Of a stretch of DNA of 64,000 nt, positions 32,001-63,874 are shown one piece after another. Each line of letters opens with the position of its first letter. Within the stretch, counting starts at the first letter, position 1. A model generated the notes under the pieces. The model had not been told where the DNA came from. It saw only the letters and a list, made by a program, of their open reading frames with translations, and made no database searches. The stretch is taken from contig NW_026570359.1 of the NCBI RefSeq assembly GCF_019649055.1, positions 245,535-309,534 on the forward strand, in the 5' to 3' direction. Origin of the DNA: Paramacrobiotus metropolitanus (lineage: Eukaryota > Tardigrada > Eutardigrada > Parachela > Macrobiotidae). The position numbers and the translations under genes are program-made.

Positions 32001-35000
32001 ACATATTTTTTCGTAATTAGTGTTCACGTTTTTCACGTGCTCGCATCCTTCTGACATAGTCAGTAAGGTTGTACTGTGTCAGAAGGTTATAACGTAGAGC
32101 GATGGCTTAACGCAAGGTCCTTCCTTCCTGTAACAGTGAACACGCAAAATAGGTCTTGGGCAATACTGTAAAATTCATTCATCCATTTTTTACCGTTCTT
32201 TTTAATTTTTGCGCTGTATCACTGCTTAGGTTATGTGAATTCGCTGTTTAGTTTATTTTATTTGTGGGATTTCGCACGGTGACTATGTATCAACGCCGCT
32301 GTTTCCAGTAATTTTACTGACTGCGAACTTTAATTAAAAGATTAAATTAAATTCATCGACCGAAATAAAACGAAAAAATAAATTTCGTTTTTCTATCATG
32401 TACTACTTTACGTTTCCTATCATGTACTATCATATTTACACTAACCAATTTCAAATACCAGAGTACTTCAGCGTGGAATGAAGTGAAACGTAGTACAGTG
32501 GCGTTACTATGGCGTGAATTATGGCGGTATCGCTGTAACTTGCTGGAAGTTTTCGTGCAGGTTTCGAGTCGATGTTCATTTTTTTATTGTTTAATTAGTT
32601 TAATTGTTCGCTTTATCTTACGCACATAAGTAACGGTTTTAATAAGTACAGGCTGTACAGCCATTTGAAGTTGGACTTTTCGCTTTATTTAAATTTATTA
32701 AAGCCCAGCACGGATGAATATTGGCCGATGACTATTAAAAACTAAGTAATTCCAAGGATGTGTTGCTTTGCGGTCGCTTACATACTGTCATAATAAACCC
32801 GTACGTATGTTTAGTAATATAGATATTATGATACACTTTACATAAGTTAATCGAAACACGGACTGTCTACTTGTACATAGTATATACAGTACATAACTTG
32901 CAATGATCACTAACGTGATGATGACTATAACGTGTTAAGTTACATGAATTTTTACTTTGTATTGTACTCGTACAGATACTTATTAGTTATTGTTAAGTAG
33001 CAGCTCAGATATTTCTGCTGTTTTCGGTCAAGTTGTGTTAGGACAGTGTGCATTTCTTATCGCGTCCATGGTAACAAGCTTATGATTGACCACTGGACCT
33101 AGACAAACGATTTTGGCAAAAAGTCAACAATCTTGGATCCACCGCTACACCTAGAGAATTTTGATGTACTTTAAAGCAACAAAATTGGTGAAGTAGAAGC
33201 CGAGATCCTTTGCCTCAAAGGAGAGGGGCCGAAGTCCTGGCACAGATAATCAGTATTCATATAACAATGCGGCAACGCTATTGAGCGGTGCTTGTTATGG
33301 AAGTTCTCGTCTGTTGTCTCTTTGTGCGGTTAAAAACAAAAATAATAAGAATGTTAATGATAAAATAATCAGAAGCAGTCAAAAAATTACAAGAAACCTA
33401 AGAAAATCACAAGAAAGTGAAGTATTTATAAGAAAATAAAAAAGAAATAATTATAATAGAACCATAATGAACTGAAATTGCAGTTATAGAAAATCCGTTG
33501 CACAGCGGATAAGTTTCCTTCCCCTAGGTATCCTTTCCACCCTCCTGGCCAAGAACGCCTACACCCTCTCCCACATCCAGACGGTCATCCTGGACGAATG
33601 CGACACCCTCCTGGACGACTCCTTCAACCACCTGACCCGGGACTTCCTCTCCCGCATCCCGCTACACGAAGGCCCCCTCACCTGCCAACCGGCCGCCGAC
33701 GGCAGCCCGGACCCCACCACCCTCCACCAATCTCCCGCCGCCCAACTCCTCCTCGTCGGGGCCACCACCCCCCTCAGTCTCTCCAAAATCCTGGACGGAG
33801 TCGTCGATGTGGACACACTGGTGCGGATTAAAACGCAGCACACACACCGCATCCAGCCGCATGTCCTGCAGACGTTCCTGCGCGTGGGGAAGGATGAGAA
33901 GCCGGAGAAGCTGTTGCAGTTGGTGCGGGCGGACCAGAAGGGCGGGCTGGTGACCATGGTGTTCTGTGGGACGACGGCGGTGGCGAGTTGGCTGACGCGG
34001 TTCATGCAGGAGAACGGGCTGCCGGCGGAATTGATCGCCAAGTCGGTGCAGGCCGGGAATCGGGCGCAGCGGTACGCGGCGTTCCAGAAGGGCGGGATTA
34101 ATATTATGGTGAGTTGGTAGTGTTGTTGCTGTCCTCTTGGACTGACCAGGTGATTATTAAACTGTTATTCTGAATAAAAATATTCGTAATTTGGAGATTA
34201 TTTTAGGGACATTTTGTTGATATCGGTATTTTAAGATAAGTTTTTTCTTACGAAGATTTTGCAGATAATTATTTCATAGATTATTCTGTTAACTTTTTCT
34301 TTATTTATTTTAATGATAGGTTACGGTTTATGATTTTTTTATTGTAGGATTATTTTTATTTGATAAACGTTTATTTTATTCGGATTTTTAACAAGAGGTA
34401 GTTGGCTCCTCTGGCTGTCCGCTAGCTAGTTGAATACTTCGGTAATTATGTTGAAAACTTGAAAAGCGATTTTGTTGGTTGTTTGTGGCTTGATCAGTTC
34501 GTTAATAAGGAGTATCCGTGATGTAATGTAGTGTAGAGGCTCGACGGTTGCACTCAAAAATGCTGATAAATCGATCCGTATCAGGATACATCATTATTGT
34601 GCTTGATGAGATTCCCTCTAGTACGAATATTTTTGGCGATTTATAAAACATTATGGCTGCGTGCACGGGTAAACACGGGTGTTAGCTATTTGCACGGGTG
34701 AACTTTTTGGGTCCGCACGGGTGTTGGCTGTGGGCACGGAGTTTGGGAACGGGTGTTGGCTGGGAGCACGGGATTCCTGCACGAGCGCTGGCTGCATGCA
34801 CGGGTAATTTATTTAATTTTAAATTGTTTAAATAAAATTTTTTTACTAATAATTCAACGTATTCTATTCTTCAACGTATTCTATTATTCAACAAATTAAG
34901 TTTTGCTATTGTGATAGCGTGTTTCTTTCTTTATTACCATAACTGTGCGATGATTATTAATAAAAGAATGCTTCTATTCTTTTATTTCGATTTTTTAAAA

Positions 35001-37250: not shown

Positions 37251-37836
37251 TCAAGTGTGCTCTTCACTTTCTCCACCAAGCAAATCCCGCGCGATCTCCG
37301 GGAAATCATGAGTAAACAGACCCCGACGAATACTCAGAGGGATCTCGGTTATCTTGGTTATCCCACCGGCGGCATTGATCAGGCATTTCGCGACGTCCCA
37401 ATGGCACCCCATAGCATGCATAGTATGGGTTATGGGGCCGGTACCAGCGCCGGGCCTCTCCAAACAGCGATCATGGACGTAGCAGCAGTGATCGAACTTA
37501 TCCATCCATCCGCTCCGCGCGTTCCCGGCATTGCGGCCACAGTTGTGCCCGTAGTACGGCCGCTCGGCCGGGATACAGCACTGATAATCCCACCCACCCG
37601 GGCAGGCTCCGCTGACGAAGGCACAGCCGGTCGTGCCGGGATTGCTGATGGGACGGCACACGCCGGTCTTCCCGCGCGCATGGCATTGAGTGTACATACA
37701 ACACTGAAAATCTACCGGTCCCGGACAATGACCGCGGCTAAACCGACATCCACGGGCCAGAGGATTGCTGGTGTACGTACAGGCGCCGCGCAGTCGTTGC
37801 GGCGTCGAACGCGGGATAAGGGATGGTCGGGATTAG
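37251..37836 (-). CDS. Secreted phospholipase A2-like protein with two cysteine modules
   Basis: The minus-strand frame holds two related modules, roughly GACTYTSNPLARGC...CPGPVDFQCC and GVCRPISNPGTTGC...CPGGWDYQCC. They share the spacing C...SNP...GC.F..G.CPG..D(F/Y)QCC. A PLA2-like domain follows. YYGHNCGRN fits the calcium loop and DHCCYVHD carries the histidine-aspartate catalytic pair of secreted PLA2s, which cleave the sn-2 acyl bond of phospholipids. The stop is at 37251-37253. The frame is open only back to a TAA at about 37835-37837, with no ATG and no acceptor in the right phase just upstream, and no signal peptide was found. The 5' part is therefore missing, frameshifted or spliced in a way I could not see. 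The module motif resembles small cysteine modules found on other secreted enzymes (recollection, not searched). Confidence 0.7.
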
Positions 37837-42226: not shown

Positions 42227-44422
42227 ATGGATGAAAAATCTCAAGAGCAGCTTCTGCCTGCAACCGAGCCGCTAAATCCACCCTGGACGCGTCGGCTAAT
42301 CACGATCGACTGCTACAACCGGATATTCGCTACCATCATCTTCTGCACTCTTTTAAGTTTAGCTGGAGTACTGAACTCGTATTTTCAGTGCACAAACGAC
42401 AACAACGCAACAGCCTGCTCTAATTTCATACGGGTATTTATTGCGCCGGATGACACCGACCAAGTGGAGATGGACGACAGCGACAACACGTTCCATTCAG
42501 TATCTTCCATTCCCAACGACCAAAGAATGGCCATCGATGTCGGAGTGTTCCAGCTGGATCCGTGGACAGCGGGAACCGAGAACATCTCTAACCTAGGTAT
42601 AATGTATCGCAATGGACCGTAACAAGTAACGCTACATATAGCGGTAATTATTGCTACGATGCTGTTAGAATACCTCAACTCGAACCGATTACTCCTCGCT
42701 TTTAAGGAGCTTCTAACTGTACGAGTATAGGATGAAAAAAGATGTACATGCAGGAGTAAAAAAACAGATGCTTTGCTAAAATGCATTTTGCGCACGGTTA
42801 GCTTCTCTCGAACCTAGTGCTGATGATTTATGCGCATTAGATGTATTCTTGTTACATACCGTTTGTTATAACGGGAATCGACTGGTCGCTTCCATGTTTG
42901 TTCCTGCACTAATAAGGTCACCAACGCAGCTAGGATAGCGATTGACGGAATCAACAAAGCATTGGTTTACAGGCACAATAAACGTTTAGATTGCTCTGCG
43001 TAATAAATAGTGAAAGAACCAAAGAAGTTAAGATCAGGTTCGGAAACGCAGCGATAAGTCTAACGATTGCGATATCTATGCTGATCCGAATATCGCAAGC
43101 CCATTAGACAATTTCATTTCCCCTGTAGTATCGTAGCGAACGCGTATTAAGCACGTAACCCACTGTTCGTAACTAGGTAACAATAAGCTGGTCCTCGTGT
43201 ACGGCGACATCACCTTTGCCGGTCGCGGCCACGACTTCTTCACCGGCTGCCCGGTACCGTCTTGCTTCGTAACCACCAACAAATCCCTGTCCGACCGTGC
43301 TGACGCCATTCTTTTCTACGCCAGCTACATGATCGACACCGCCCAGAAGACGCTGGACCGTCTGCCTCGGAAACACGGCGACCAGGTATTCGTGTACGTC
43401 CAGGGTGAATCACCTATCCACAGTATCCCGGGCGAGGGACTGGCGACATCGCATTTCTTCAACTGGACTATGACATACAGGCTGGATTCGGATATTCGCG
43501 GGCACTACACGTACGCGGTACCGTTGCAGAAGAAGGCAAAGAATTTCGCCAAGGGCAAGGATAAACTGGTGGTGTGGTTCGCCAGTCACTGCAATGTGCA
43601 CAGTAAACGCGATCAGTATGTGCGCAAGCTGCAGCAGTTTATCCCGGTGGATATATACGGAAAGTGCGGGAATCTGACGTGTGATAAAGCTGAGCATGAA
43701 AGCAAATGCCGGGATATTATTCGACAGTACAAATTCGTTCTGGCATTCGAGAACAGGTTCGTCACGTGTTTGACTGTTACTTGCATCTTAGAAAGTACTA
43801 GAAATTTGAAAAACGTGAGCTCACGATAATGTTGCGGTGACCTTTATAAAAATGCTAACACGGCCAGAAATCAACTTTTTTATTAAAACGCAAGTAAACA
43901 AAAATTATGTGGAATACTGGCGAAAGATTTACTGTTACCAGTGATTCGTGTCTGTTTCTTTGTAGCATTTGTCGTCATTATGTCACCGAGAAGATTGTCA
44001 CCGCGTACGACAACGACGTGGTCCCGGTGGTCATGGGCGATGGCGATTACGAAATCTTCCCGGAGCACTCATACATTCACGCCTTCGACTTTGCCAGCCC
44101 GAGTTCACTGGCAAAACATCTGTGGCACTTGGCTAACAATGATACCGCCTATAATTTATACATGAGATGGCGCTACAATCCCCGTTTGACGCAGTCGCAC
44201 GGAGAGTTCGCTGTTGAGCGCAATGGATATTGTGAGTTATGTAAGCGACTGCATGATCTCAATGAAAACGTTAAGGAACAGAGGAAATCCATTGCCAGCA
44301 TTAATCACTGGTGGAGAGGTCGCAAGAAGGATGTCTGTGTTGGTAACTGGTACACGACGCCGAGTGTGAGACATCAGTTGCGGCTGCGTCAGCGGTCGTC
44401 AAACATGGACGCGTATCTGTGA
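42227..44422 (+). CDS. GT10 alpha-1,3-fucosyltransferase-like enzyme, three exons
   Basis: A Golgi type II membrane enzyme that transfers fucose from GDP-fucose to glycan GlcNAc residues (family knowledge). Exons: 42227-42596, 43177-43756, 43966-44422; phases 1 and 2 match at the two junctions, giving 468 residues. The N-terminus is cytosolic (MDEKSQEQLLPATEPL), followed by one membrane helix (IFATIIFCTLLSLAGVL) and a stem. Catalytic-domain markers: FNWTMTYRLDSDI, KLVVWFASHC, the VDIYGKCG stretch, and the family signature FENSICRHYVTEK, assembled exactly across the exon 2/3 junction, then VPVVMG. The start is the second in-frame ATG; one at 42140 would add 29 residues before the acidic N-terminus and is less typical. 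An AATAAA signal lies at 44613-44618. The gene looks intact. Acceptor specificity cannot be told. Confidence 0.94.
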
Positions 44423-44619: not shown

Positions 44620-45600
44620 CTACCATGCTGAAAAAAGTAATAATCGGATTACTATTGCCGGTCCCAAGGAAACGCTGCCATCCATCGTTACGTTTTCCAG
44701 AAGCGTCAAATAATTTGCATTAAACTGATTGTAAACATCGTCCAGTTTGAGATACGACTCGGTGGAATCACAGTCCATTACCAGCCGCAAATCATGGGTC
44801 AGCTGAGCAAAATCAGTGCGGTCATCCGGAGAAAATTGCCAGCATTGTGACATCATCTTATAACTGTCAAAACCCACATAGCTGGTTAACAGTCAGCCGG
44901 CATTTGTTCCAGTACTTACCAGTACTTATTGCTCGCAAATAAAGCAGCTTAATGCAATAAAGAACCACGGATAAGTAAACATGCGGTACGCTTCTAGCAG
45001 AACGGTCAAAAAACAATAACTGTTGCACTTACATGGCGTTAGGACAGAATGTCGGCCTTTCCCAAACGTGATCCGTTTTTCAGAGATTCCACAAATTCAG
45101 AGATAGACTGATGCATTATATCACTCGTACCATATGGTAGTTTACCCAGACTGAACGTTTCCCACATCACCACACCAAAAGACCATACATCGGATTTGTG
45201 GGTGAATTTCCTGTGGGTGATGGCTTCCGGTGGCATCCAGCGCACGGGTAACGCTTCCTATGGTTGAACCGTGGGTCATTCCTTAATTTGAAAACACTAC
45301 TGAAACCGCGTACTACTGAAGCCTTATACTGTAGTACAAGCAGTGGTACGGATTTACTGCCCGTTTATACAGTCGGAAACTGTTCTAAAGACTGCCTAAG
45401 ACTGGTAATGATTATCGAAATTCTGTCAAACTTTTCAATGTAAAATATAGTACTTCCGGGATGTAGCAGCGTATTAAAAAGTGGCATCTTGGCTGACCTT
45501 TGGATCAAACGGAATTTCTTCGGTACCGGCTTGTGCCATTCCGGAATCAGCAATTTTCACCACATTTCTATCACAAATCAGGATATTGCGCGCCGCCAGC
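44620..45600 (-). pseudogene. Receptor tyrosine kinase fragment (third family copy)
   Basis: Only the last three kinase exons of the astacin-kinase family remain: 45600-45498 (catalytic loop end to activation segment), 45257-45033 (RWMPPEAI...[12 protein letters not shown]) and 44863-44620 (CWQFSPDDRTDFAQL to stop). The first is cut just before LAARN, so HRD is lost, by the hairpin element beginning at 45601. DFG has become DSG. The middle exon is 225 bases against 224 in both other copies. The extra base produces an early stop (ADILS), while without it the family sequence would be restored. There are no upstream exons before the hairpin element. Three independent defects make this a pseudogene. 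Confidence 0.85.
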
Positions 45601-46446: not shown

Positions 46447-49005
46447 TTATTGATTTAAGGCAATACTACCATCCATTATCACATTTTCTAAAACGGTCAA
46501 ATAATTCACATTAAACTGGTTGTACACGTCGTCCAGAAGAAGATATGTTTCGGCGGAATCACTGTCGATAATCAGTCGCAGAGCATGGGTCAGTTGGGCA
46601 AAATCGGTGCGGTCATCCGGTAAGAATTCCCAGCTTATATCTGCGAAAAGCACAGCTCAGATAAATCTCACTACATTATTATGTCAGCTATGGTTTCGCG
46701 GCTCAGAAATAGAAGAATTGTTTTGGAGTTAGTGAATGTGAACTACTTTGAGGGACAAACGAGTGCGTTTGGAGAGACACGTTGCACGGAAGGTTCAAGA
46801 ATAAAATTATTAATAAGCGAAACTTACATGCCGGAAGGACAGAATACATGTCTTTCCAAACGTAATCCATTTTTTAATGACACCACGAATTCTGCGATGG
46901 ACTGGCGCATAATATCACTGCCACTGTACGGAAGATTACCCAGACTGAACGTTTCCCACATCACCACGCCAAATGACCATACATCTGATTTGTGGGAAAA
47001 TACTCTGTGTGTGATGGCTTCGGGCGGCATCCAACGCACTGGTAACATTTCCTAGCATTGAAATTAAGTTACTCGATCAGTCTACAATTATGGAGACTAG
47101 TGTGCCGTTGTAGTCGATTAAAACGTGCAGACATCAAAAACGCTCAGTTGACGTTTTCGTCGCTGAACCGACCAAACATCTGGTCTGGGGAAACCAAAAA
47201 GACTACGGCCGTAAATATTGTCGTCAATTTAAACCAACCGGCGGCGGATACCCACAGAAAAAGAACAGGAAAACAAAGTCGGTGGCTAGTTCGTTAGCTA
47301 TGCAAAAGATGATAAGATCATGATATCACGCCCCTTCGGTTCGATGAATAAATCAACAGGCAAGATAACCAAACTTGGTATGGTAAAAGTTAAAAGCTGT
47401 ACTCTTTACCCTTTGAACAGTTGGTTTTGGTCATAGAACCGACGACCGACATCTAGTTTGGTCCGTAAAATGATCACTTTACTGCATGTAAAACGAGCAG
47501 TAGCTTTCGTTTAGATTTCCGTTCGGAAAACCGATAATGCGGCACAGCCTAATGTTTGCGTACTCTGTCCAAACATAATCGGTTTGCTTGCGCTTAGTCG
47601 TAAACTTAACGTCCTAAATTGCAGACAAGCGACAACTTCACTGACCTTAGGATCAAAGGGAACGTCTTCTGTACCGGCTTGTGCCATTCCAAAATCGGAA
47701 ATTTTCACCACGTTTCTATCACAGGATTCACAGATGAGGACATTGCGGGCAGCGAGATCTCTGTGGATGATCGATTTTGTGCCAAGATACTCCATGCCGC
47801 GGCTAATTTGATATACAAAACTGAGTAAAGTTTTGGACGATAAGCACAGTGGACTAAGTCCGTTCTCCGTCCACTGAGGATCACCAGCATTCAGAAGTCG
47901 TTCGATATGTTCGGCTTTGTCTTCATCGTAGGGCAGGATATCTCCGTTCTCATCGACGTGATTGTAGAAGCGTTCAGTGTTGTATGACTGAAGGTATCTT
48001 AGCAAGGAGCCATACTGGGCGAGCTCCAGCAACAAGAGCGCTTCGCCTGTTACAAGAAGCTGAATATCAAGACGTATAACAGTTTAACGAGAGTAAGCAT
48101 TACCTTTGGTTACCACTCCCAACAGGTTCACAATATTTAAATGGCGACCGGTCCGTGTCATAATCTTCAGCTCCTGGATAAGTTGGCGAATTTGACCGTT
48201 GTCGTGTTTTCTTCTAGGACTTTTGACAGCAACATCCACTTTACTGGGATTGCCGTAGACGCCATCCGCAGTGCCTCTCCACACTATACCGGTCGCCCCT
48301 TTGCCAAGAACTGTATTCGCTGCAAAGGCCCAAAGGTTGCCAGTCCGATAACAATTTTGCGAATAATATGATTACGTAGTGGCCTCTTACAAATCGCCAA
48401 TCTGGCCAGTGAAATCTCTAAAAGCTTAATATGGCCGTGGAGCGCGGAATCGTTCGGAATGAGGTGATGGAGATCACCTTGAACAGAGGACAGATCGTGT
48501 AATGCCACAGATTTAACGAGGGAATGCGGACGCCAACTGTCCTTGCGCATGGTACTGTGCCCTTGATGATGCTTCTTAAGCCGCAACCAGTATAGTGCCA
48601 CTGCTGCGACGACGACTGCAAACGGAATCAGCGTGCCTAAAGTAGCCTGCAAAGCGATACTGGTGCGGTTGGTATCCATATGCGTAGATGTGGTCGCGTT
48701 AGTAGTATCGTCACCTGAAAAAATTACGAATCTATTGAACAATTCTTTTATTTTTGTCTGCATCCAGAAGGTCACCGTGAACTTGGCGAAGTAAAATCGG
48801 ATGTGCGGCACTACACTGACTACCAGCTCCCAATAATGCTATTTAACGCTGTAGGCGTTAAATACCGTTAACGCCGGGCGAGTTTCGTTTGTCCCTGGCA
48901 ACGTAGCAGCTTCATCCAGTGATGACGCTAACAATTTAGTAGAAGAAAGCATAGTTCTTTTGATTGAACATTTAGTAATTAGTTCGCCAATTTTTTCGCC
49001 AAAAA

Positions 49006-50100
49006 ATGGCTCCTAAACCCCGGTCCGTCGCGCCTGTCGCACCCAGAAAACGCCGGAGGGGGATTGTTAAAAAGACAACAGAGCAACAATCACCAGACTC
49101 CATCGATTTGGTTGCTCTTCAGCATACAGTTTCTCAATTGCAAACGCAATTGGCTGCTTTAACAGTTCAACAACCCCAATTTCCCGTCCCACCTGGATCT
49201 TCACCTTCAGTCACTACTCCCGCGCTGATTGACCTTTCCATTCCGGAGCCCAGCACGTCATTTAAACCGCCATCCAATCTATGTTTACCCACACTTGATA
49301 ATCCTACGTTAAAATTACTGTCCGATCGTCATGGGTTCATTAATTTGCATAAACTACTACCGGTTAACAGAGGCGTAGAATCAGTTTCCGATCAGCCTAT
49401 GTATGTGCCTGATAATGACGGTAAATTAATTCCCACCACCACTGTGCCTAATCGCCGGAAGATTGACACTTTCAACTCCTGGCTGGACGCATTTTTGTTA
49501 TTTGCTCGTTACCGGGTTTATTATCATCCTAGTCTGGCACTTGCGCTGTTCGCATACATTGACATTATTCGTGGCTTATCAGTATCTCGTCCTCTGTTAA
49601 TCTGGCTTGAATATGATCGACGGTTTCGCGACAAGATGAGCAACCGTGACATTTCTGATAATGCTTGGTTCGTTGAAGATTCGTCTGTCATTGCTGAGGT
49701 CATGCGTACTATCCCACTGAGCTACACGGGTCCTCTTTTCCAAAAAGACGTCCGCTCGCCACCGCCTCCGGTTTCAGCGAAGCCGCCCTTTGGCTGTTAT
49801 TTGTGCCGCAGCTCTGAGCATTACGCTAATGTATGCCCGCAGCGTCGTAACCCGTCTGATGTATCCGCTCCCGCACAGCGTTCCCCTACCGCCCTTTCGT
49901 CCACCCCGCGTTGCAGCTCAGCCCTTTCGTCCACCCCGCGTCAGCCCTTTCGTCCACCCCGCGTTGCAGTCTGCCGGGATTACAACGCGGGGCGATGTTC
50001 CAACCCGTGCCCCGGTCGTCGATTGCACATCTGTGATGAATGCTTCGACGCAACCTACACCCGACCTTTCCACTCTTCCTCGACCGCGTCTACCAACTAA
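49006..50100 (+). CDS. Gag-like protein of the tyrosine-recombinase retrotransposon
   Basis: 364 residues. The N-terminus is basic (MAPKPRSVAPVAPRKRRRG), then comes a glutamine-rich helix that may oligomerise (LQHTVSQLQTQLAAL). The middle domain has LPVNRGVE and FNSWLDAFLLFARYR, and is typical in style of DIRS/Ngaro Gag. A zinc knuckle CYLCRSSEHYANVC (CX2CX4HX4C) follows, and a second cysteine-rich patch (CRDYNAGRCSNPCPGRRLHIC) closes the protein. Between them the phrase LSSTPR/FRPPR reflects three tandem copies of CAGCCCTTTCGTCCACCCCG. It would package the element RNA. ORF2 overlaps its 3' end in another frame. Confidence 0.85.
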   Translation: MAPKPRSVAPVAPRKRRRGIVKKTTEQQSPDSIDLVALQHTVSQLQTQLAALTVQQPQFPVPPGSSPSVTTPALIDLSIPEPSTSFKPPSNLCLPTLDNPTLKLLSDRHGFINLHKLLPVNRGVESVSDQPMYVPDNDGKLIPTTTVPNRRKIDTFNSWLDAFLLFARYRVYYHPSLALALFAYIDIIRGLSVSRPLLIWLEYDRRFRDKMSNRDISDNAWFVEDSSVIAEVMRTIPLSYTGPLFQKDVRSPPPPVSAKPPFGCYLCRSSEHYANVCPQRRNPSDVSAPAQRSPTALSSTPRCSSALSSTPRQPFRPPRVAVCRDYNAGRCSNPCPGRRLHICDECFDATYTRPFHSSSTASTN

Positions 50101-51739
50101 TCCTTACACTCCACTACAGCCCTATAAATTCCTTGGCTATCTACGTGAGTACCCCAATCGTGGCGTTGTATATCAGTTTATAACAGGTTTGCTGTATGGT
50201 TTTTCCATTGGATACACTGGCCCAAGTTTAGCTCGTCATACTGCCAACGCGCTCACTGCTCGACAGTACCCGGAAATAGTGCGTCGTTACATTGCCAAAG
50301 AGATTGAACTGAAGCACACTTTGGGACCTTTCACATCTCCTCCTTTTAAATTTTTCGTCACTTCATCTTTAGGAGTAAGACCGAAGAAGACCGGAGGAGC
50401 ACGCTTGATTATGGACCTTTCCCGGCCTTTCGGTACCTCTGTGAACGATTACATTTGCAAGAAAACATACACTATGCGATTCTGTTCTGTCGATGACGCA
50501 ATTCGTATTATCATCAAGTTAGGTGCCGGTGCCATCATGGCCAAAATGGACCTGAAACATGCCTTTCGCCTCATACCTGTCAGACACCAAGACTGGCACC
50601 TTCTCGGGTATTGTTTTGACGACCGATACTACTTTGATGTCGTATTACCCTTCGGCTGCCGCTCTTCGCCCGCAATTTTTGACAGAATGGCCTGTTTTTT
50701 GGAATGGATCATTCAAAATGTATGTCATTTTCGGAACGTTCTGCACTATATGGATGATTTCTTTTTCGCGGGTCCATGCGGTTCCATCTTTTGTCAGTTA
50801 GCCATTGAGCTTATGGCGTTGTTGTGTTTGGATCTGGGCATTCCGCTAGCGCCCGATAAGACTGAAGGGCCCTCAACGAAATTAACTTTTCTCGGCGTCG
50901 TCCTGGACTCAGTCGATCAAACTATTTCGCTTCTACCAGGAAAACTTCAAGATTTAATCGATGAGTTCACAGTGTTCTCAACTAGGCAGTTTGCTTCAAA
51001 GCGTGACCTTCTGAGTCTTATCGGCAAGCTTAGTTTTGCTACGAAATGTATTCCGGCGGGTCGGATCTTCTTAAGACGAATGATCGATTGTGCCAATTCA
51101 GTCCGCTTGCTACATCAGTCAGTTAATCTGAACTCCGAATTTTGCGCCGATTTAGAGTGGTGGATTAAGTTTTTGCCTCTATGGAACGGCACTGCTTCTT
51201 TTGTTGAGCCAGACTGGACAGACGCAGACAGTCTGAGTTTGTATACGGATGCGTCTCACGTCGGCTGCGGCGGATTTTTTGGTAACCGATGGTTTCATTT
51301 AATTTGGCCACCTGAACTTATGAATCTGCATCCGCATATCACTTGGTTAGAGATTCTGCCAATTCTTTGCGCATGTAGACTATGGGCTACACACTGGCAC
51401 CGCAAGCGAATTACATTCTTCTGTGACAATCAGGCCGTAGCAGCAGTTTGGAGCAAGTTCCCTTCTAAGCATCCCGGGGTCATGGCACTAATCAGAGCAT
51501 TACATTTCGAGGCTGCACGGTATAATTTTCATCTACGCATCCTATACATACCTGGGAAGAGTAATGCCACAGCAGACGCGTTGTCCCGTGACAATATTGA
51601 GCGGTTTTTTGAACTCTTACCGACGGCAAATCGGCTTCGAGATGACCCTCCGTTTGATGTCGCCGAATTCTTCGACATTCTTCCTACTCCACCCAAATGT
51701 CGTAATCGTCGGTCAAAGTATCCCTTTGTCTCTTATTGA
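49790..51739 (+). CDS. Reverse transcriptase-RNase H polyprotein of the retrotransposon
   Basis: Real homology begins near 50120 (PYKFLGYLREYPNRG). The ATG at 49790 lies in the Gag overlap and may not be the true start; frameshifting or re-initiation is possible. Reverse transcriptase: GARLIMDLSRPFG, AKMDLKHAFRLIPV, LPFGCRSSPAIFD, and the catalytic box LHYMDDFFFAG near 50745-50777. RNase H: SLYTDASHVGCGG (first Asp), ITWLEILPIL (Glu), FFCDNQAVAAVW (Asp) and GKSNATADALSR (last Asp region). No protease and no integrase. The frame is intact, so the enzyme may be active. Confidence 0.92.
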   Translation: MAVICAAALSITLMYARSVVTRLMYPLPHSVPLPPFRPPRVAAQPFRPPRVSPFVHPALQSAGITTRGDVPTRAPVVDCTSVMNASTQPTPDLSTLPRPRLPTNPYTPLQPYKFLGYLREYPNRGVVYQFITGLLYGFSIGYTGPSLARHTANALTARQYPEIVRRYIAKEIELKHTLGPFTSPPFKFFVTSSLGVRPKKTGGARLIMDLSRPFGTSVNDYICKKTYTMRFCSVDDAIRIIIKLGAGAIMAKMDLKHAFRLIPVRHQDWHLLGYCFDDRYYFDVVLPFGCRSSPAIFDRMACFLEWIIQNVCHFRNVLHYMDDFFFAGPCGSIFCQLAIELMALLCLDLGIPLAPDKTEGPSTKLTFLGVVLDSVDQTISLLPGKLQDLIDEFTVFSTRQFASKRDLLSLIGKLSFATKCIPAGRIFLRRMIDCANSVRLLHQSVNLNSEFCADLEWWIKFLPLWNGTASFVEPDWTDADSLSLYTDASHVGCGGFFGNRWFHLIWPPELMNLHPHITWLEILPILCACRLWATHWHRKRITFFCDNQAVAAVWSKFPSKHPGVMALIRALHFEAARYNFHLRILYIPGKSNATADALSRDNIERFFELLPTANRLRDDPPFDVAEFFDILPTPPKCRNRRSKYPFVSY

Positions 51740-51779
51740 CTCTTAATGATGTTCTGTTGTCCACTGTTATTAACATTTT

Positions 51780-52751
51780 GTGTTTTTTCCAGAAAACGCT
51801 CGCGTACTAAATGCTCATAATGCGCCATTTCGCCCAGTTATCCGAACTTTATTGCAAGCGCATTTGTCATCTGCCAGCCAAAAAGTGTATCGGGTCGCTC
51901 TCCGAACTTTCCAATCATTCTGTAACCGTAACGGTTTTCCTTTCGTGCCCACGGATTCTGAAACCATCTTAAATTTTGCTGCACAACTTTTCTTGGATAA
52001 ATTAACTGTAGCCACAGCGCGAGTGTACGTTTCGGCCATTACAACATATAGCACTCTTAACGGCTATCCGGATCCTATTCCGGACAAACGCCGCCTGGCG
52101 CTGCTTTTTTCTAGATGGTCCAGAATCCGTGGGTCACCTCCCATGAAGCGTGCCGGACTAACAGTAGCAAATCTGCGTTCTTTGTTTCACTATATTCAAT
52201 CACTTCCGTACTGCATGTTTGATCGCATCATGTTGCAAGCTGCCACGATGATGGCTTTTTATGGATTTATGCGTGTGTCTGAATATTGTGCTCCTACTCA
52301 ATCCCGATCAGCTACCCACAGTCTTCGTGGTTCAGATATTTCGTGTGATTTTTCCTGTCTTCAGATCACACTGCGGAAAAGCAAAACATCTCAGCATGCT
52401 CCCGTTGTTATATCTATTCCTCCTCTATCTGATATCACGTGCCCCGTTACTGCTGTTTCTCGCTATCGAGCGCTTCGGGATACCCGTTTTGATTCTTCAT
52501 CTCCATTCTTTTGTTTTTCAGACGGAAAATATTTAACTCGTCAATATATATCCAATTTGCTACATAGTTGCTTCGGTCCCACAGTGTCAACCCATTCGTT
52601 TCGGATTGGTGCAGCTTCAACCGCGGCTAACGTCGGTTTAACATATGTGGACGTTCAAAAGATGGGACGGTGGACCAGTGATGTCGTTAACAGATACATT
52701 CATAAGTCTTCCGCTCCATATTGTCACTTGTACAACTGTTTATTGTCATGA
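51780..52751 (+). CDS. Tyrosine recombinase of the retrotransposon
   Basis: About 323 residues, lambda-integrase type, joining circular cDNA into the genome (family knowledge). The catalytic set is visible: arginine in FYGFMRVSEYC, HxxR in THSFRIGAAS, tryptophan in MGRWTSDVV, and the nucleophilic tyrosine in NRYIHK. The N-terminal SAM-like core-binding half includes LSSASQKVYRVALRTFQSFC. A pyrimidine tract plus CAG just before ENARVLNAHN is conserved in both copies of the element, which may mean that this ORF is reached by splicing rather than from the nominal ATG. The frame is intact. Confidence 0.92.
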   Translation: MFFPENARVLNAHNAPFRPVIRTLLQAHLSSASQKVYRVALRTFQSFCNRNGFPFVPTDSETILNFAAQLFLDKLTVATARVYVSAITTYSTLNGYPDPIPDKRRLALLFSRWSRIRGSPPMKRAGLTVANLRSLFHYIQSLPYCMFDRIMLQAATMMAFYGFMRVSEYCAPTQSRSATHSLRGSDISCDFSCLQITLRKSKTSQHAPVVISIPPLSDITCPVTAVSRYRALRDTRFDSSSPFFCFSDGKYLTRQYISNLLHSCFGPTVSTHSFRIGAASTAANVGLTYVDVQKMGRWTSDVVNRYIHKSSAPYCHLYNCLLS

Positions 52752-54257
52752 AATATTAATACTCTCTTTCCCGTTCGGTTGCGTTTTCTCGTTCCGGTTG
52801 GGCCGCGCGGCGTCGCTTTGGGGTGTTCGGCGCGGCTTGTCTCAACGGAAGTCGGTGACCAGCGGCGCCGTTCAGTTGCGACCGTTTGGACATCGCCGGC
52901 TTTCGAGCACTTGTCCCGACATCCACAAAGCGGCAACTTAATTAAACGAGTCCGAAAGCGTTAATGAGCGGTTAGCGCAGCTAAACACATTTATCGGAAG
53001 CTGGCCATTTTATTTGTAATCTTTTTTTAGTTTTCGTTCTTCATCCGTTCGTATGGGACGTTCTAATAAATTTAAGCCTGCGGTCTGGCCGCACAATGAA
53101 CTGGTATTTCTCGATTCTGGTAATGTAATCTAAGCTGCTTCGTGACCCCGCATCCTTTTCTAACCTGAACAGTCGTCTGCTCCAACTCGCTGAAAGAGCT
53201 GTATAAGCAACTCCAGTTGAGAGGCTTTAAGAGGATCGTTTCAATACCGTATATTACGGCAGTACTTCGTAACTTTTGCTTACCTATGAAATAGGACGCT
53301 TCGGCTACACCACATTTATATCGCATTTGAACGCGCAGAACATCCAAGGGGCTTAAATTGATGTCTGTCCCAACTGTTTTCCTTTGGCTTTCGGAATTAT
53401 TGTTGGTTTACTAGAGTCGCGGGCAAATTCGTTGAACCGGTAGTGCGTACCTGAAGCGTATGGCAGCCCGTAAGTTTCCATTCCTTTACGGATAGCGAAG
53501 TTGTCGAGCACTAAATGGGGCAAACTTGCTTTCTCGTTCACAGTATATGTACTTGGTTTACAACTTCACGTTTTCGTAGCCGTCGACGATTCGACGTGTT
53601 TTCCTATGTATAAGCAGTTAATAATACCAGTAAGATCTAATCAAGTTATCCAAGCCACACTTACTAAAAACAAAAAACTTTACCCTTTGGATTTATATTG
53701 CTCCATATGATTTCCACATAATTGTCGCGATCAGGCTTCTGGTTTTCATGGTAGAAGCCCAAGGTGTGCATGAGTTCATGCTGTACATTTCCGTGGTGAT
53801 GTAGACATCCTTCCTTCAGCGACAAAAACTGCTTTCCACCCACTCGACCCACGTTTGAGTGGCAGCTACAAAATATAAACACACCCAAAGATTTCTTTCT
53901 CGAAGTAAAACCTCATGACGAACCTGTCATCGTGATTAATCACAAGATAGTCCGGTTCCGTTGTGCGTTCCACAAATTTGACACAATTTGCGGTCATACG
54001 GTTAATAACTTGCATGGACTGCAGCACCATACGCTTTTCTGCTGGGACTGAAAAATAAAATATAAAAAATATCAAATATGCCAATGTAAAAGAACCGTTT
54101 ACAAAATCTTACCATCCATGATCTGGGCGTCAACGGAATAGGGTACAGTGCCATTAGGCCATGTAAGATGTTTTCTTTTTCATCTTGTATGGATCCTTCT
54201 AAACTTTGAAAAAAAAGAAGTAGTAGAAGGAGAAGTAGTAGAAGGATTTCACTCCTC

Positions 54258-56095
54258 TTCGGCCCTACAAATTTCTTCGTTACCTACGTGAGTACCCGAA
54301 TCGTGGCGCTGTGTATCACTTTATTGCAGGTTTGCTGAATGGGTTTTCTATTGGCTACACCGGTCCAAGTTTAGTTCGGTCTACTGCCAATGCGCTCACT
54401 GCTCGACAGTATCCAGATATAGTGCGTCGTTACATTGCCAAAGAGATTGAACTGAAGCACACGTTGGGGCCGTTCGCATCCCCGCCTTTTAAATTCTTCG
54501 TCAGTTCGTCTCTAGGAGTCAGACCGAAGAAAACTGGAGGAGCACGCTTGATTATGGACCTCTCCGGCCTTTCGGTAGCTCCGTAAATGACTATATTTGC
54601 AAGAAAACGTACACCATGCGATTCTGTTCTGTCGATGACGCAATCCGTATTATTATCAAGCTAGGTGCCGGCGCCATTATGGCCAAATGGACTTGAAGCA
54701 CGCCTTCCGCCTCATACCTGTCAGGCCGGAAGATTGGCACCTTCTCGGGTATTGTTTCGATGACCGTTTTATTTTGATGTGGTATTACCTTTTGGTTGCC
54801 GCTCTTCGCCCGCCATTTTCGATAGAATGGCATGTTTTTTGGAATGGATAATTCGAAACGTGTGTCATTTTCGGATGTTCTGCACTATATGGATGATTTC
54901 TTCTTCGCCGGTCCATTCGGTTCTATTCTTTGCCAGTTAGCTATTGAGCTTATGACGCTGCTGTGTTTAGATCTAGGAATTCCGTTAGCGCCTGATAAGA
55001 CGGAAGGACCTCAACAAAATTGACCTTTCTCGGTGTCGTCCTGGACTCCGTTGATCAAACCATCTCGCTCCCACCCGGAAAACTTCAAGATTTAATCGAT
55101 GAGTTCACGGTGTTCTCCACCAGACAGTCAGCTTCTAAGCGTGACCTTCTCAGTCTAATCGGCAAGCTCAGTTTTGCTACGAAATGCATTCCAGCCGGTC
55201 GGATTTTCTTACGACGGATGATCGATTGTGCCAATTCAGTCCGCCTCTTACATCAGTCGGTTCATTTAAATTCTGAATTTCGAGCTGATTTGGAGTGGTG
55301 GATTAAATTTTTGCCACTGTGGAACGGTACTGCTTCTTTTATCGAGCCAGACTGGACAAACGCAGACAATTTTAGCTTGTATACGGATGCGTCTCACACT
55401 GGGTGCGGCGGATGTTTCGGGTAACAGATGGTTCCAGTTAACTTGGCCTCCTGACCTTATGATTCTGCATCCGCATATCACCTGGTTGGAGATGCTGCCA
55501 ATTCTTTATGCGTGTAGATTATGGGGCACACACTGGCACAGCAAGCGGTTGACGTTCTTCTGTGACAACCAAGCTGTAGCGGCAGTTTGGAGCAAGTTCT
55601 TCCAAGCATCCCGGGGTCATGGCATTAATTAGAGCATTACATTTTGAGGCAGCGCGATATAATTTTCATCTACGTATTGTCTATTTACCGGGGAAGAGCA
55701 ATGCTACAGCAGATGCGTTGTCCCGTGGCAATATCGAGCGGTTTTTCGAACTTCTACCGTCTGCAAATCGGCTTCGAGAGGAATTTCCGTTCAATATGGT
55801 TGAATTCTTTGACGTTCTTGCTGCCTCGCAAGTGCCGTAATCGCCGGATAAAGTATCGTTTTCATTCTTATGTTATCTAGTTGTTCACTGTTATTAACGA
55901 TGTGCTTTATTGCAGAAAACGCTCGTGTACTTAATGCTCACAATACGCCATTTCGTCCAGTTATCCAAACTTTGTTGCAAGCGCATCTATCATCCGCCAG
56001 TCAGAAAGTGTATCGGGTTGCACTGCGCACATTTAATTCTTTTTGTAACCGTAATGGTTTTCCTTTTGTGCCCACGGATTCTGCAACCATCTACA
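54258..56095 (+). mobile_element. Truncated, decayed copy of the same retrotransposon
   Basis: It aligns closely, apart from indels, with 50118-51970 of the full element: from PYKFLRYLREYPNRG through the reverse transcriptase and RNase H into the first part of the tyrosine recombinase (QAHLSSASQKVYRVALRTF). Both ends of the element are missing. Several single-base indels break the frame, for example near 54570, 54690, 54885, 55015 and 55420, although YMDD and the RNase H motifs can still be read piecewise. It abuts the 5'-most recognisable exon of the broken astacin-kinase gene, whose start codon is missing at this border. Confidence 0.9.
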
Positions 56096-56990
56096 GTTGT
56101 GAACCGCTTCTCAGTTATGCACTGTATTTAGTAGCTGCAGACGACATGCAGTGGTCGCGTAATTCTTCTTTCGGTTGCCGCTAGCATGCTTATGCTCAGG
56201 CTCTTTCGTGTATCCATCGGAACTTATCCGTGCGCCTTCAGTCATGGCGCGCTTTGTCTCACAGTTACTGTATCTGATTGTGCAAGTTGCAGTGGATTTA
56301 TGAAGGCAGTCGCTACAATCGACAGCACAGGACTTCTGGAAATTATTATAACGAGCCACTGTCATCGGTGTCGTTACCCACGTCTGCCTACCTGGTACCG
56401 AGGTCAGCGGGCGCCACCGTTCACATATCAATATATGACCCCTGTTTCGTTCTTAACGTCCGGACAAGCGTTGCACAGACGTGCTCTGATGGGAGACGGT
56501 CATCAGAAAATTCCTCCATATTAACTCCAGCGCCAGTAATGTCGCCCATGCGAAATTGGGTGGGGGAGCGACGGACACTGTCAGCAATAAAACATTATAA
56601 ATCCTGGAATTTTCACTCTTGCGTGCAAGTGCTTAACGTGATGAGTCAGAAGGTGTCGGTCGATCTTTGCAAAACAGTCGGCCACTTAAGATGGGCACGT
56701 TAGCAGCAACCAATTCGGGGATTCAGGTTGTTTCTGACGCTGTTAGTGTCCGACAGTCCACCACCCACTTGACGAATCCACGGAAGTATGGACAAGTGTT
56801 CAACGAAGATATTTCATGCACCGTAAGCAAAGTCGCGGTGCAGACAAAGACATGATATTGGGAAAACACTTCAAATTTGCAATGCTATCATAGTAATGAG
56901 CATGGTACGTGGCATATTCCGGTTACGGTGGCGGCGTCTTCGCGATAACTGCTAGCAGAAAGCACTACGCCAGCCATGAAATGTGCCTGC
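56096..56990. other. No gene recognised
   Basis: Between the truncated retrotransposon and the next gene I find no recognisable coding sequence. I searched it for the missing 5' exon of the broken astacin-kinase gene on the minus strand and did not see it. Confidence 0.4.
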
Positions 56991-60406: not shown

Positions 60407-63400
60407 ATGTTTCACGAAAGAACGATATTTCTTTTAGCCGTTATTCTTCAAATATTAAACGAATCCATACAGGATGAACAAGATCGCTAACACTGTTCCG
60501 TACGTTTTTAGCGCCCTAACAACACTGTTCCGTACGTTTTTAGCGCCCCGTCCCTTAAGGGTAAGGATGGTTGTCTATGTCGGCATTAAATTCCGTCTAA
60601 GACGTTTGCCTCTTATGGATTCCCAGACAAAACAGCGGCGAACAGAAACATGGTGTTGGAGTCCATGCAGATCATCAGTCGTATGACCGGAAATTGTGTC
60701 AAATTTGTGGAACGCACAAATGAGACGGACTACCTTCTTATTTCTACGCTGGGTTTCCGGTAAGTTGCATGCTGCGGTACTTAGCTTTTCAAAAAATGAT
60801 GCTAGGGTGCGTTTGTAGTTGCCAAGCCCACGTAGGACGCAGTGGCGGCAGGCAGATCCTGTCCACACAGAGAGCGTGTCTCCACGAGCACGGAAGCGTA
60901 CAACATGAACTCATGCACACACTGGGCTTTTATCATGAGCATCAGAGGCCTGATCGGGACGACAACGTCGAAATCATTTGGAGTAATATCAGTCCAGAAT
61001 GTAAAGACAACGTGTACTTGATACGTTTTTAATGGAAAATGCTCAGCTGGCCGAACTATGCATAAGCAAGCATAACTGCTGCAAACAAGTGAGTCTTCTG
61101 TTTGTAAGACAGTAAACTAATTTGTCCCGCGGTGTTGCAGGGAATGACTCCTTCGCTATCATTAAAGGAATGGAGACGTACAGGTTGCCATATGATTACG
61201 ACTCAGTAACGCATTTCTCTGCCTATGAATATGCCATTAACCGGCGTACACCAACGATAATCCCTAAAGTCGAAGGAAAACAAATTGGGCAAAACAACAA
61301 TTTAAGTCCACTGGATGTAGTCAGAATTCACATGCGATATAAATGTGGTGTTGCGGCAGCTTCCTATTTTACAGGTATTTGTATAGTCGTATATACGAGG
61401 ATATCAATAACTGCGTAGTGCGTAGCGTTTAACTGCGTACTATTAAAAAACGTTATGTTATGTACTGTACTTATAAAATAAGGCAGAGAAATTAAGTTAA
61501 ATTCAGTTCTAACCTTTTGCACGCCGTATATAAATCGCTATAAGCTGGTCAATGCAGAGCTGCAAAAGCTAATTGTACCGCTAGTTTTAACTTTTACCAT
61601 AATAATGAAATTTAGATAGTATTTACTGAAGATATAATATTGTATGTTTGGATAATATAATTATTTAGATAATACATATACAGATATATTTACATTATAT
61701 ATATTTACATTTATTTACAGACGAGCCTCGGTCGAAAAAATCAACGACTGCGCCGTTCCTCACAAAAGCATTCCTGCAGAAACCACGGCTCACCCGGAAT
61801 GGAACAATTTACCCACTGCAGACTGCAAACGGCACAGCCTGGTCAGGTCTAAACTCAACAATCGGTGAGCTTTGTTTTAGAAAATTATAAAGAATTTTTT
61901 AGAATTTTTATAAAGAAAGAATTTATTTTTTTTAAAGAATTTTTATAAAGACTTGTCGAAATATATTCATACTGTCATACAGCAGCAGCACCTGTAATAA
62001 AAAAAATTTCGGGAAATTCTGGCAGACTTGTATTGTTATAGGCGACGATAATGATAACGCTACCACTTTGTTTACGGAGACCATCAGCAGCAGAATCGTC
62101 TTGCCGGCTGCATTGGGCACTCTGGTTCCGATTGCAGCCGTTGCAATAATCGTGGCACTGTGCTGGTTGCGGCTGAAGAAGCAGCACCAGGGACAAAGTA
62201 CTATGCGCAAAGCTCGATGGCATCCCCATTCGCTCGTAAAATCAATGGTATTACACGATCTGTCCTCGGTTCATGCGGATCTTCTGTTGAATGATCCGGC
62301 GCTACATGGCCATGTTAAAATTCTGGAGATTTCTCTGGCCAAAGTGATGATCTGTAAGAACAAATGACATATTCTAGCCAATTGTCACAAAGCAACCAGA
62401 TTAGCTGACGATTAGATATACGTCTTTGCAGCAAATACACTGCTTGGCAGAGGAGCGACCGGTATAGTATGGAAAGGTACAGTGGATGGTGTTTACGGCC
62501 ATCCCGGTCAGCTGGATGTTGCTATCAAGAGTGCGAGAAGAAAACATGATACCGGCTGCATCCGTCAGTTAGTACAAGAGATGAAAATTATGACACAGGC
62601 CGGTCGCCACTTGAACATCGTGAATTTGTTGGGAGTTGTAACAAAAGGTAATATGTATACCAAAAGGACCTACTGTATACAGTAGGTCCTGATACCATGT
62701 AAATCCGGCTTTCCTGTTCAAAAATTACTATTTGGCTAGTCCACTGCATGCGTTGATATCATGATTCTAGAAGTGATACTTTTCTCTAAAAGGTGAAGTG
62801 ATATTGCTGCTGGAGTACGCTCAATTTGGCTCCCTGTCGAAGTATCTCCAGTCGTATAACGCGGAACACTTCTATAACCACATCGATGAGAACGGAGGCC
62901 TGCTACCATATGACGAGGACGAAGCGGAACTTTTCGAAAGACTACTGTATACAGACGATTCTCGCTCAGAAGACGGACTTAGTCCACCGTGTCTGTCGTC
63001 CAAAGCTTTGATGAGCTTTGTATACCAAATTAGCCGAGGCATGGAGTATCTCGGCACAAAATCTATTATCCACAGAGATCTCGCGGCTCGCAATGTTTTA
63101 ATTTGTGATAGAAACGTGGTGAAAATTGGTGACTTCGGAATGGCGCAAGTCGGGACCGAAGACATTCCTTTTGGTCCTAAGGTTAGCAGGATTGTCTTTT
63201 TGTCGTCGTTACTTCAGTCACCCATTTCCACCACAGGAAGCATTACCAGTGCGTTGGATGCCACCCGAAGCCATCGCCAACAGGATATTTTCAAACAAAT
63301 CAGACGTATGGTCTTTTGGTGTGGTAATGTGGGAAGCATTCAGTCTGGGTAAACTTCCATACGGCGACAGTGACATTATGCGCCAGTCCATCTCTGAATT

Positions 63401-63874
63401 TATAACGTCACTGAAAAACGGATTACGCTTGGAAAAACCAAAATTCTGTCCTAGTGCCATGTAAGTGCATGCTGCCCATTCTTTGATCTTTGATCGTGAT
63501 TCGTGCTCACGATGTGCTAAACTTGTAGGTACAAACTGATAGCGTATTAAATAACTGCCTAGAATTACCTCAAGTTTTCTTATTTCTTTGGAGTTCCGAA
63601 AGTTTTACTGTAGGCAAAGTTGCAGTATTTGTTAAATACCCCGTTTGTTTTTGGCAGTTATAACCTGATGTTACAATGCTGGAAATTTTCACCGGATGAC
63701 CGTACTGATTTCGCTAAGCTGACCCTTGCTTTGCGACTAGTCATTGATAACGATTCCGCCGAAACGTATCTTCTCCTCGACAATGCTTATAATCAGTTTA
63801 ACTCAAATTATTTGACAATTTTGGAAAATGTCATGATGGATGGAAGTGTTTCTTTAGACCGACAACTTTTATAA
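60407..63874 (+). CDS. Receptor tyrosine kinase with extracellular astacin protease domain
   Basis: Exons: 60512-60560, 60627-60759, 60819-61000, 61141-61374, 61721-61864, 62042-62353, 62432-62647, 62793-63181, 63237-63460, 63658-63874; all GT-AG with matching phase, about 700 residues. A separate ATG frame at 60407 gives a good signal peptide (MFHERTIFLLAVILQIL), but it hits a stop before 60490, where a 32-base tandem duplication sits, so the 5' join is unresolved. Domains in order: astacin (NTVPYVF; zinc site HELMHTLGFYHEHQRPDRD; Met-turn reads SVTHF; ends HMRYKCG), threonine/asparagine-rich linker, membrane helix (LVPIAAVAIIVALCWL), juxtamembrane, then kinase with glycine loop LGRGATGIVWKG, DVAIKS lysine, kinase insert, [52 protein letters not shown] and RWMPPEAI are receptor tyrosine kinase hallmarks. 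The activation segment has no tyrosine. Proteolysis outside coupled to signalling inside is inferred from domain order. Confidence 0.85.
60489..60548 (+). repeat. 32-base tandem duplication at the start of the astacin domain
   Basis: AACACTGTTCCGTACGTTTTTAGCGCCC occurs at 60489 and again at 60521, a spacing of 32 bases, which is not a multiple of three. The second copy is in frame with the downstream astacin exons. The TTTTTAG at the end of the first copy makes a plausible splice acceptor just before it. Confidence 0.85.

Follow-up and report, generated by a model that had tools for sequence, protein, structure and literature searches.

The final 64 kilobases (kb) of the 309,534-base contig C139 of Paramacrobiotus metropolitanus, the whole stretch of which is the window analysed here (G+C 42.4%, compared with 43.5% reported for Paramacrobiotus sp. 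TYO in PMC8277472), contain on the plus strand at 60407-63874 a gene, referred to as gene A, that is predicted to join an astacin metalloprotease domain through a single membrane helix to a kinase of the receptor tyrosine kinase (RTK) type. Further copies were found on the minus strand of the same window (copy B) and on three other contigs (C111, C118 and C89) in a genome search that covered 169.8 Mb in 533 contigs. A fused astacin-kinase receptor gene, and not two adjoining genes, is well supported by these gene models, because the paralogues have the same junction phases and purifying selection acts on both halves. We consider it moderately probable that the copies belong to a lineage-specific family of single-pass RTKs with enzyme folds as sensors, in which astacin takes the place of a GH16 domain in a minority of members and binding pairs the receptors.

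Gene A can be modelled as ten exons separated by nine GT-AG introns; astacin exons containing HELMHTLGFYHE come first, then a linker exon, then a hydrophobic helix and an RTK-type kinase. The exons were joined by hand before the Pfam search, and the resulting protein matched Astacin with 140.8 bits (cut-off 22.5 bits) and PK_Tyr_Ser-Thr with 251.1 bits. Membrane helices were called by Kyte-Doolittle hydropathy; the helix AALGTLVPIAAVAIIVALC in exon 6 has a mean value of 2.53 and the sole further peak in A and C111, at 1.7, lies within the kinase. An earlier note on this DNA had described the same succession of domains, and the Pfam scores and hydropathy peak bear it out. The note had also stated that the reading phase is kept over all nine junctions, which stands for the drawable introns and for exons 2-10, a single open frame up to the stop at 63874, but not for exon 1, which translates as MFHERTIFLLAVILQILNESIQDEQDR, a stop, HCSVRF, a second stop and RPNNTVPYVFSAPSLK. 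Two features had been overlooked, namely the Met-turn, which reads SVTHF instead of S[I/V]MHY, and copy B, on the minus strand at about 54.3-46.4 kb. The parts of gene A are listed below.

60407..60560, plus strand: exon 1, with a signal-peptide-like start, a WPNNTVPYVF-type astacin N-terminus and two in-frame stops; donor AGG/GTAAGG after 60560; homologues in C111, C118 and C89, where the first exon is open.
60489..60548, plus strand: perfect 28-base direct repeat (60489-60516 and 60521-60548, 32-base spacing) that breaks exon 1.
60627..60759, plus strand: exon 2, astacin N-terminal subdomain with the Cys of TGNCVKF.
60819..61000, plus strand: exon 3, 182 bases, zinc site HELMHTLGFYHEHQRPDRD; donor GAAT/GTAAAG, preferred as the one also used in B and C118.
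61141..61374, plus strand: exon 4, Met-turn region SVTHF through the last astacin Cys, with the YKCGVAAASYF junction.
61721..61864, plus strand: exon 5, extracellular Ser/Thr-rich linker, phase 1-1; related linker sequence is present in C118.
62042..62353, plus strand: exon 6, membrane helix and juxtamembrane segment; the genome was searched with its C111 counterpart.
62432..62647, plus strand: exon 7, kinase N-lobe with glycine loop and VAIK.
62793..63181, plus strand: exon 8, kinase insert.
63237..63460, plus strand: exon 9, kinase C-lobe with WMPPE.
63658..63874, plus strand: exon 10, kinase end, Tyr-rich tail SAETYLLLDNAYNQFNSNYL and stop.

In exon 1 the two stops, placed around the 28-base repeat, separate the signal-peptide-like start from the first astacin residues, and gene A as assembled therefore has no uninterrupted start. 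The break could be a true lesion, an assembly error or the sign of an unseen first exon; in its assembled form this copy was probably damaged recently. It is quite possible, if somewhat short of an even chance, that gene A is a pseudogene or that its kinase is expressed without the astacin half, so that the fused receptor would come from other copies only; besides the two stops, B and C118 are broken too and the kinase half is open in both A and C118. Against this, exons 2-10 are open and constrained, and the repeat could be the splice target of a first exon further upstream that has escaped notice. The repeat or an indel could also be an assembly error, because the Paramacrobiotus sp. TYO assembly, as described in the accessible part of its publication, was built from Nanopore reads with Illumina polishing (PMC8277472), and the frameshift in exon 1 of copy B adjoins A-rich runs.

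In copy B the frame is shifted in exon 1, in exon 4 and, apparently, in exon 10. Its exons, numbered as in gene A, and a neighbouring duplicate are as follows.

53924..54290, minus strand: exon 1 (about 54.29-54.12 kb, with a frameshift before WPNGTVPYSV) and exon 2 (54041-53924).
53284..53865, minus strand: exon 3 (53865-53684, HELMHTLGFYHENQKPDRD) and exon 4 (53510-53284, SGTHY, with a frameshift near 53360).
48391..48714, minus strand: exon 6, membrane helix and juxtamembrane segment.
46828..48319, minus strand: kinase exons 7 (48319-48104), 8 (48046-47646) and 9 (47051-46828).
46453..46640, minus strand: exon 10, apparently frameshifted; an in-frame junction was not found.
44623..45575, minus strand: partial duplicate of the last kinase exons of B, downstream of B, in segments that are 78-85% identical.

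A retroelement at 48979-52748 occupies the astacin-to-membrane intron of B, on the opposite (plus) strand. A reverse-transcriptase frame in it matches RVT_1 with 45.2 bits, and another frame, which resembles a tyrosine recombinase, reaches 23.6 bits with Phage_integrase, below the cut-off; we take the element to be DIRS-like. There is a partial copy of it at about 54247-56184, and its flanking segments are repeated with about 83-90% identity.

The order astacin, membrane helix and tyrosine kinase, on one strand and within a few kb, occurs at all five loci. C111 is an unbroken frame of 684 amino acids from a signal-like start to the stop, with Pfam matches to Astacin (168.1 bits over 2-188 of 189) and the kinase (245.3 bits over 4-258 of 258) and a membrane helix in exon 6 that peaks at a hydropathy of 2.55. 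C89 (Pfam Astacin 111.6 bits) is open from its start codon for 573 amino acids, the length that was spliced, which ends within the kinase; further kinase exons show up beyond that point as open, unspliced segments. The signal-like first exon, judged by eye, is open in C111, C118 and C89 and is not open in A and B, and C111 and C89 look, from their reading frames, like the copies able to make a receptor. In C118 exon 3 is interrupted by a stop and exon 4 by a frameshift, the donor of exon 4 is gone, and the kinase frame is open; carrying HALMH for HELMH and HKD for HRD, this copy is, as read, decaying in both catalytic motifs. Counted by half, the astacin lesions number one in A, two in B and three in C118 and the kinase lesions one, in B, a distribution that was noticed afterwards and was not used as a test.

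Exon 3 has 182 bases and exon 7 has 216 bases in every copy, and the junctions that precede the membrane exon in the astacin-kinase copies are in phase 1, with the exon-4 donor of C118 lost. In C111 and B no linker exon was found, an absence that is tolerated because the linker is in phase 1-1. When the C111 membrane/juxtamembrane exon was compared with the genome, C111, A, B, C118 and C89 ranked first (E <=1e-7, with C89 at 1e-7), followed by two others at E 3e-4 and 9e-4. A sixth astacin-kinase locus was not found with the astacin part of A, the astacin/membrane part of C89 and the C111 membrane exon as queries, for which the best 150, 144 and 16 candidates were scored in a genome that may have gaps.

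Rates of nonsynonymous and synonymous substitution (dN and dS) were estimated by the Nei-Gojobori method from comparisons of A, B, C111 and C118 with one another (six pairs), C89 being left out for saturation of its synonymous sites. The dN/dS ratio is 0.20-0.30 in the astacin half (dS 0.79-1.12) and 0.15-0.19 in the membrane/kinase half (dS 0.74-0.91), values that are approximate at a dS of about 0.75-1.1 and that, as estimates from coding sequence, show purifying selection on both halves among these four copies. The similar dS of the two halves is expected from joint duplication of a fused gene.

It is extremely improbable that astacin and receptor kinase are two separate genes that happen to adjoin, even though the linker follows an intron of 347 bases and the membrane exon one of 177 bases, and stand-alone astacins are abundant in the genome (at least 164 matches, the best 150 of 445 candidates having been scored). 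Order and phase are the same at five loci, C111 and C89 are single open frames, dS is similar in both halves pair by pair, and the frame is kept with no need of a stop or a poly-A-like end after exon 4. Chance adjacency, which the earlier note had argued against from gene A, was rejected on the same arrangement and phases at the five loci, with both halves constrained.

The astacin family is characterised in the accessible part of a review by a prosegment, the motif HExxHxxGxxH followed by Glu, and a SIMHY Met-turn with a zinc-binding Tyr (PMC9848320). None of the five copies keeps the entire active-site signature. The zinc motif HExxHxxGxxHE, with three zinc His and the catalytic Glu, is kept in A, B and C111; the catalytic Glu has become Ala in C118 (HALMH), and C89 has lost two zinc His and has RELMHVLGFYNE in place of the motif. 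The Met-turns read SVTHF (A), SGTHY (B), SVTHY (C111), SITHF (C118) and SVMQL (C89), so that a SIMHY-type turn with its zinc-binding Tyr is found in none, and the Met is Thr in four of the five. In C111, C118 and C89 the signal-like start leads directly, within one exon, into WPNNTVPY, WPNNTIPY or WPHNTVPF, so that a prosegment would not fit into any of these three readable first exons. The nearest stand-alone astacins, three of which were examined, keep the Met (SIMHY, SVMHC and SVMHY) and the zinc core and have an EGDI-type segment upstream, which we take to be the prosegment aspartate motif.

The astacin part is probably, to judge from these alterations, now a sensor and not an active enzyme. 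The alternative, that the astacin of A and C111 is an active protease which cuts a ligand, a matrix protein or its own stalk and that the cleavage is signalled, is unlikely. It draws on HELMHTLGFYHE with three zinc His and Glu in A, B and C111, on the dN/dS of the astacin half and on the Met-turn of matrix metalloproteinase MMP-2, in which replacement by Leu or Ser had a minor effect according to the accessible part of PMC1266349; loss of the Met is therefore no proof of inactivity. In the same source several replacements of the Met in protease C were harmful or destabilising, and here the signature is incomplete throughout, C118 is without the catalytic Glu, and C89 is without two zinc His and yet is an open receptor gene. 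The suggestion of the earlier note that a protease cuts its substrate and so drives the kinase is weakly supported, given the absence of the full signature in five copies and of prosegment room in the three readable exons, but activity is still possible because all three zinc histidines persist in A, B and C111, together with the catalytic Glu. For C111, a working protease on a kinase is possible, as far as its motifs tell.

The kinases of A, B and C111 contain VAIK, HRD and DFG. The segment from DFG to the WM[PS]PE motif is without tyrosine in all five copies as read, which is unusual for a receptor kinase, and activation may bypass loop autophosphorylation.

Related kinases of the same genome, which share the kinase family and the membrane/juxtamembrane exon type with the astacin copies, bear GH16-like ectodomains. 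At least 150 kinase matches were listed, and our own grouping placed them at 79 loci. With Pfam (GH16 cut-off 22 bits), 25 of 40 GH16 matches lie no more than 5 kb upstream of a listed kinase locus on the same strand and one of 40 lies on the downstream side, and 21 of the 79 listed loci have GH16 within 5 kb upstream. The ectodomain of C154 matches GH16 with 61.8 bits and one on C98 weakly with 23.2 bits; three further ectodomains tested alongside gave no Pfam match. A GH16 profile that we built from seven ectodomain sequences matched 35 of 41 surveyed kinase stretches, six of which had been used in building it and several of which had been picked for a Pfam GH16 already known there. Among 24 stretches chosen for having no listed Pfam GH16 nearby, 18 match (one weakly, 18.4 bits) and six do not. 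None of the 41 stretches matched the astacin profile, whose sole match was C89. GH16 is absent from the Pfam results on A and C111, which come from Pfam only, the self-built profile not having been run on the A, B, C111 and C118 loci. The GH16-like receptor kinases form a large family on C154, C98, C77, C72, C4, C6, C7, C9, C25, C53, C74, C516 and other contigs, and this family is probably more notable than gene A itself.

The GH16 catalytic motif ExDxxE could be read by pattern at two of 15 loci, C154 and C4, and is missing in both. This would also suit a role of the ectodomain as bait or decoy, aimed at protease inhibitors or at the proteases of pathogens, in place of a receptor for a hormone-like ligand, as would a zinc core that is kept with an altered Met-turn and would still bind inhibitors; to our knowledge insect glucan-recognition proteins also are without ExDxxE. 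Such a role, which would have to be read from motifs, seems distinctly unlikely.

Under the sensor reading that we favour, an astacin fold, joined to a signal peptide without the zymogen prosegment, would have replaced the GH16-like domain of a related kinase, most likely once, in the phase-1 intron directly before the membrane-helix exon, and gene duplication would have followed. Outside the cell the astacin fold would act as a ligand-binding module for a peptide, a protein or an inhibitor, and binding of the ligand would bring about receptor pairing (dimerisation), by which the intracellular kinase would be switched on. This mechanism fits because many relatives bear GH16 and the open copy C89 cannot hold zinc in the usual way. 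A kinase tree of 23 rows unites A, B, C111 and C118 in one clade (100/100).

Several points weigh against this reading. In the same tree C89 stands apart from the other four, which gives two ectodomain changes, although a single clade is not rejected by the approximately unbiased test (p-AU 0.276); a FastTree run likewise left C89 unplaced. Two separate swaps are possible because the kinase tree does not group C89 with the others. The splice from astacin to the membrane exon is predicted, A, B and C111 retain the HExxHxxGxxHE core, and metzincins are not always inactivated by replacements in the Met-turn (PMC1266349, accessible part). If none of the copies is an enzyme, activity would need to have been lost by differing routes in four of the five. 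The astacin half is broken in three of the five copies (A, B and C118) in this assembly, and the ectodomain could for that reason simply be decaying. The GH16 survey, lastly, relies on a profile self-built from only seven sequences.

Elsewhere in the window there are a fucosyltransferase exon at 43898-44419 on the plus strand (Glyco_transf_10, 99.4 bits) and a DEAD-box helicase exon at 31318-32013 on the plus strand (78.3 bits). A cysteine-rich frame at 37254-37832 on the minus strand contains CCYVHDRC, a stretch reminiscent of phospholipase A2, and has no Pfam match at E 0.001. A telomere repeat of the tardigrade Hypsibius gave no match.

Compared with known systems, the kinase half is closest to the PDGFR/VEGFR/FGFR group of RTKs, with which it shares a single helix and a split kinase with an insert. 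By sequence its best PDB matches are the EGFR-labelled 9p9u_A (263.7 bits), then VEGFR1, PDGFR alpha and FGFR4/1. The ectodomain has the astacin fold, whereas that of the group is Ig or FN3, and no activation-segment Tyr is present in the five copies as read. The astacin half matches Pfam far above the cut-off, as expected of astacin metallopeptidases (M12A), and its best PDB matches are the zebrafish hatching-enzyme-like 3lqb, the choriolytic enzyme 3vtg and then astacin 1ast. It differs from the M12A enzymes in the altered Met-turn or zinc site of five copies, in the fused helix and kinase, and in having no prosegment (C111, C118 and C89). The GH16-like RTKs are alike in membrane/juxtamembrane type, kinase family and C-terminal Tyr-rich tail, and differ in that the ectodomain is astacin in the five copies. 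In meprins and membrane astacins the astacin domain is membrane-tethered, as it is here. Meprins, which are covered in the accessible part of PMC9848320, have no cytoplasmic kinase, in contrast to the copies here.

The earlier note knew of no described family with an astacin ectodomain on a tyrosine kinase, and we found neither an astacin-kinase nor a GH16-kinase receptor described in the open-access literature, a scope that leaves most subscription papers and the protein databases outside it. Kinases are unmentioned in the accessible part of the astacin review (PMC9848320), protease, peptidase and hydrolase are unmentioned in that of a paper on the holozoan tyrosine kinome (PMC8662651), and PMC11191345, which concerns this genus, has neither astacin nor kinase.

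Tentatively, and with rather less than even confidence, we suggest that the dozens of RTKs with co-opted enzyme-fold ectodomains, mostly GH16-like and a few astacin, may amount to a lineage-specific, germline-encoded system of surface sensing in tardigrades, in which modules of secreted enzymes were swapped onto one signalling chassis and lost catalysis, to sense microbial or dietary polymers and proteases.

Receptor kinases usually recognise their ligands through Ig, FN3 and similar domains, and one kinase chassis here bears ectodomains derived from enzymes. The paralogue series takes astacin from an intact zinc site to lost zinc ligands, which makes the step from enzyme to receptor testable within one genome. 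Tardigrades are known for stress survival, and the findings point to a large undescribed receptor family in these animals.

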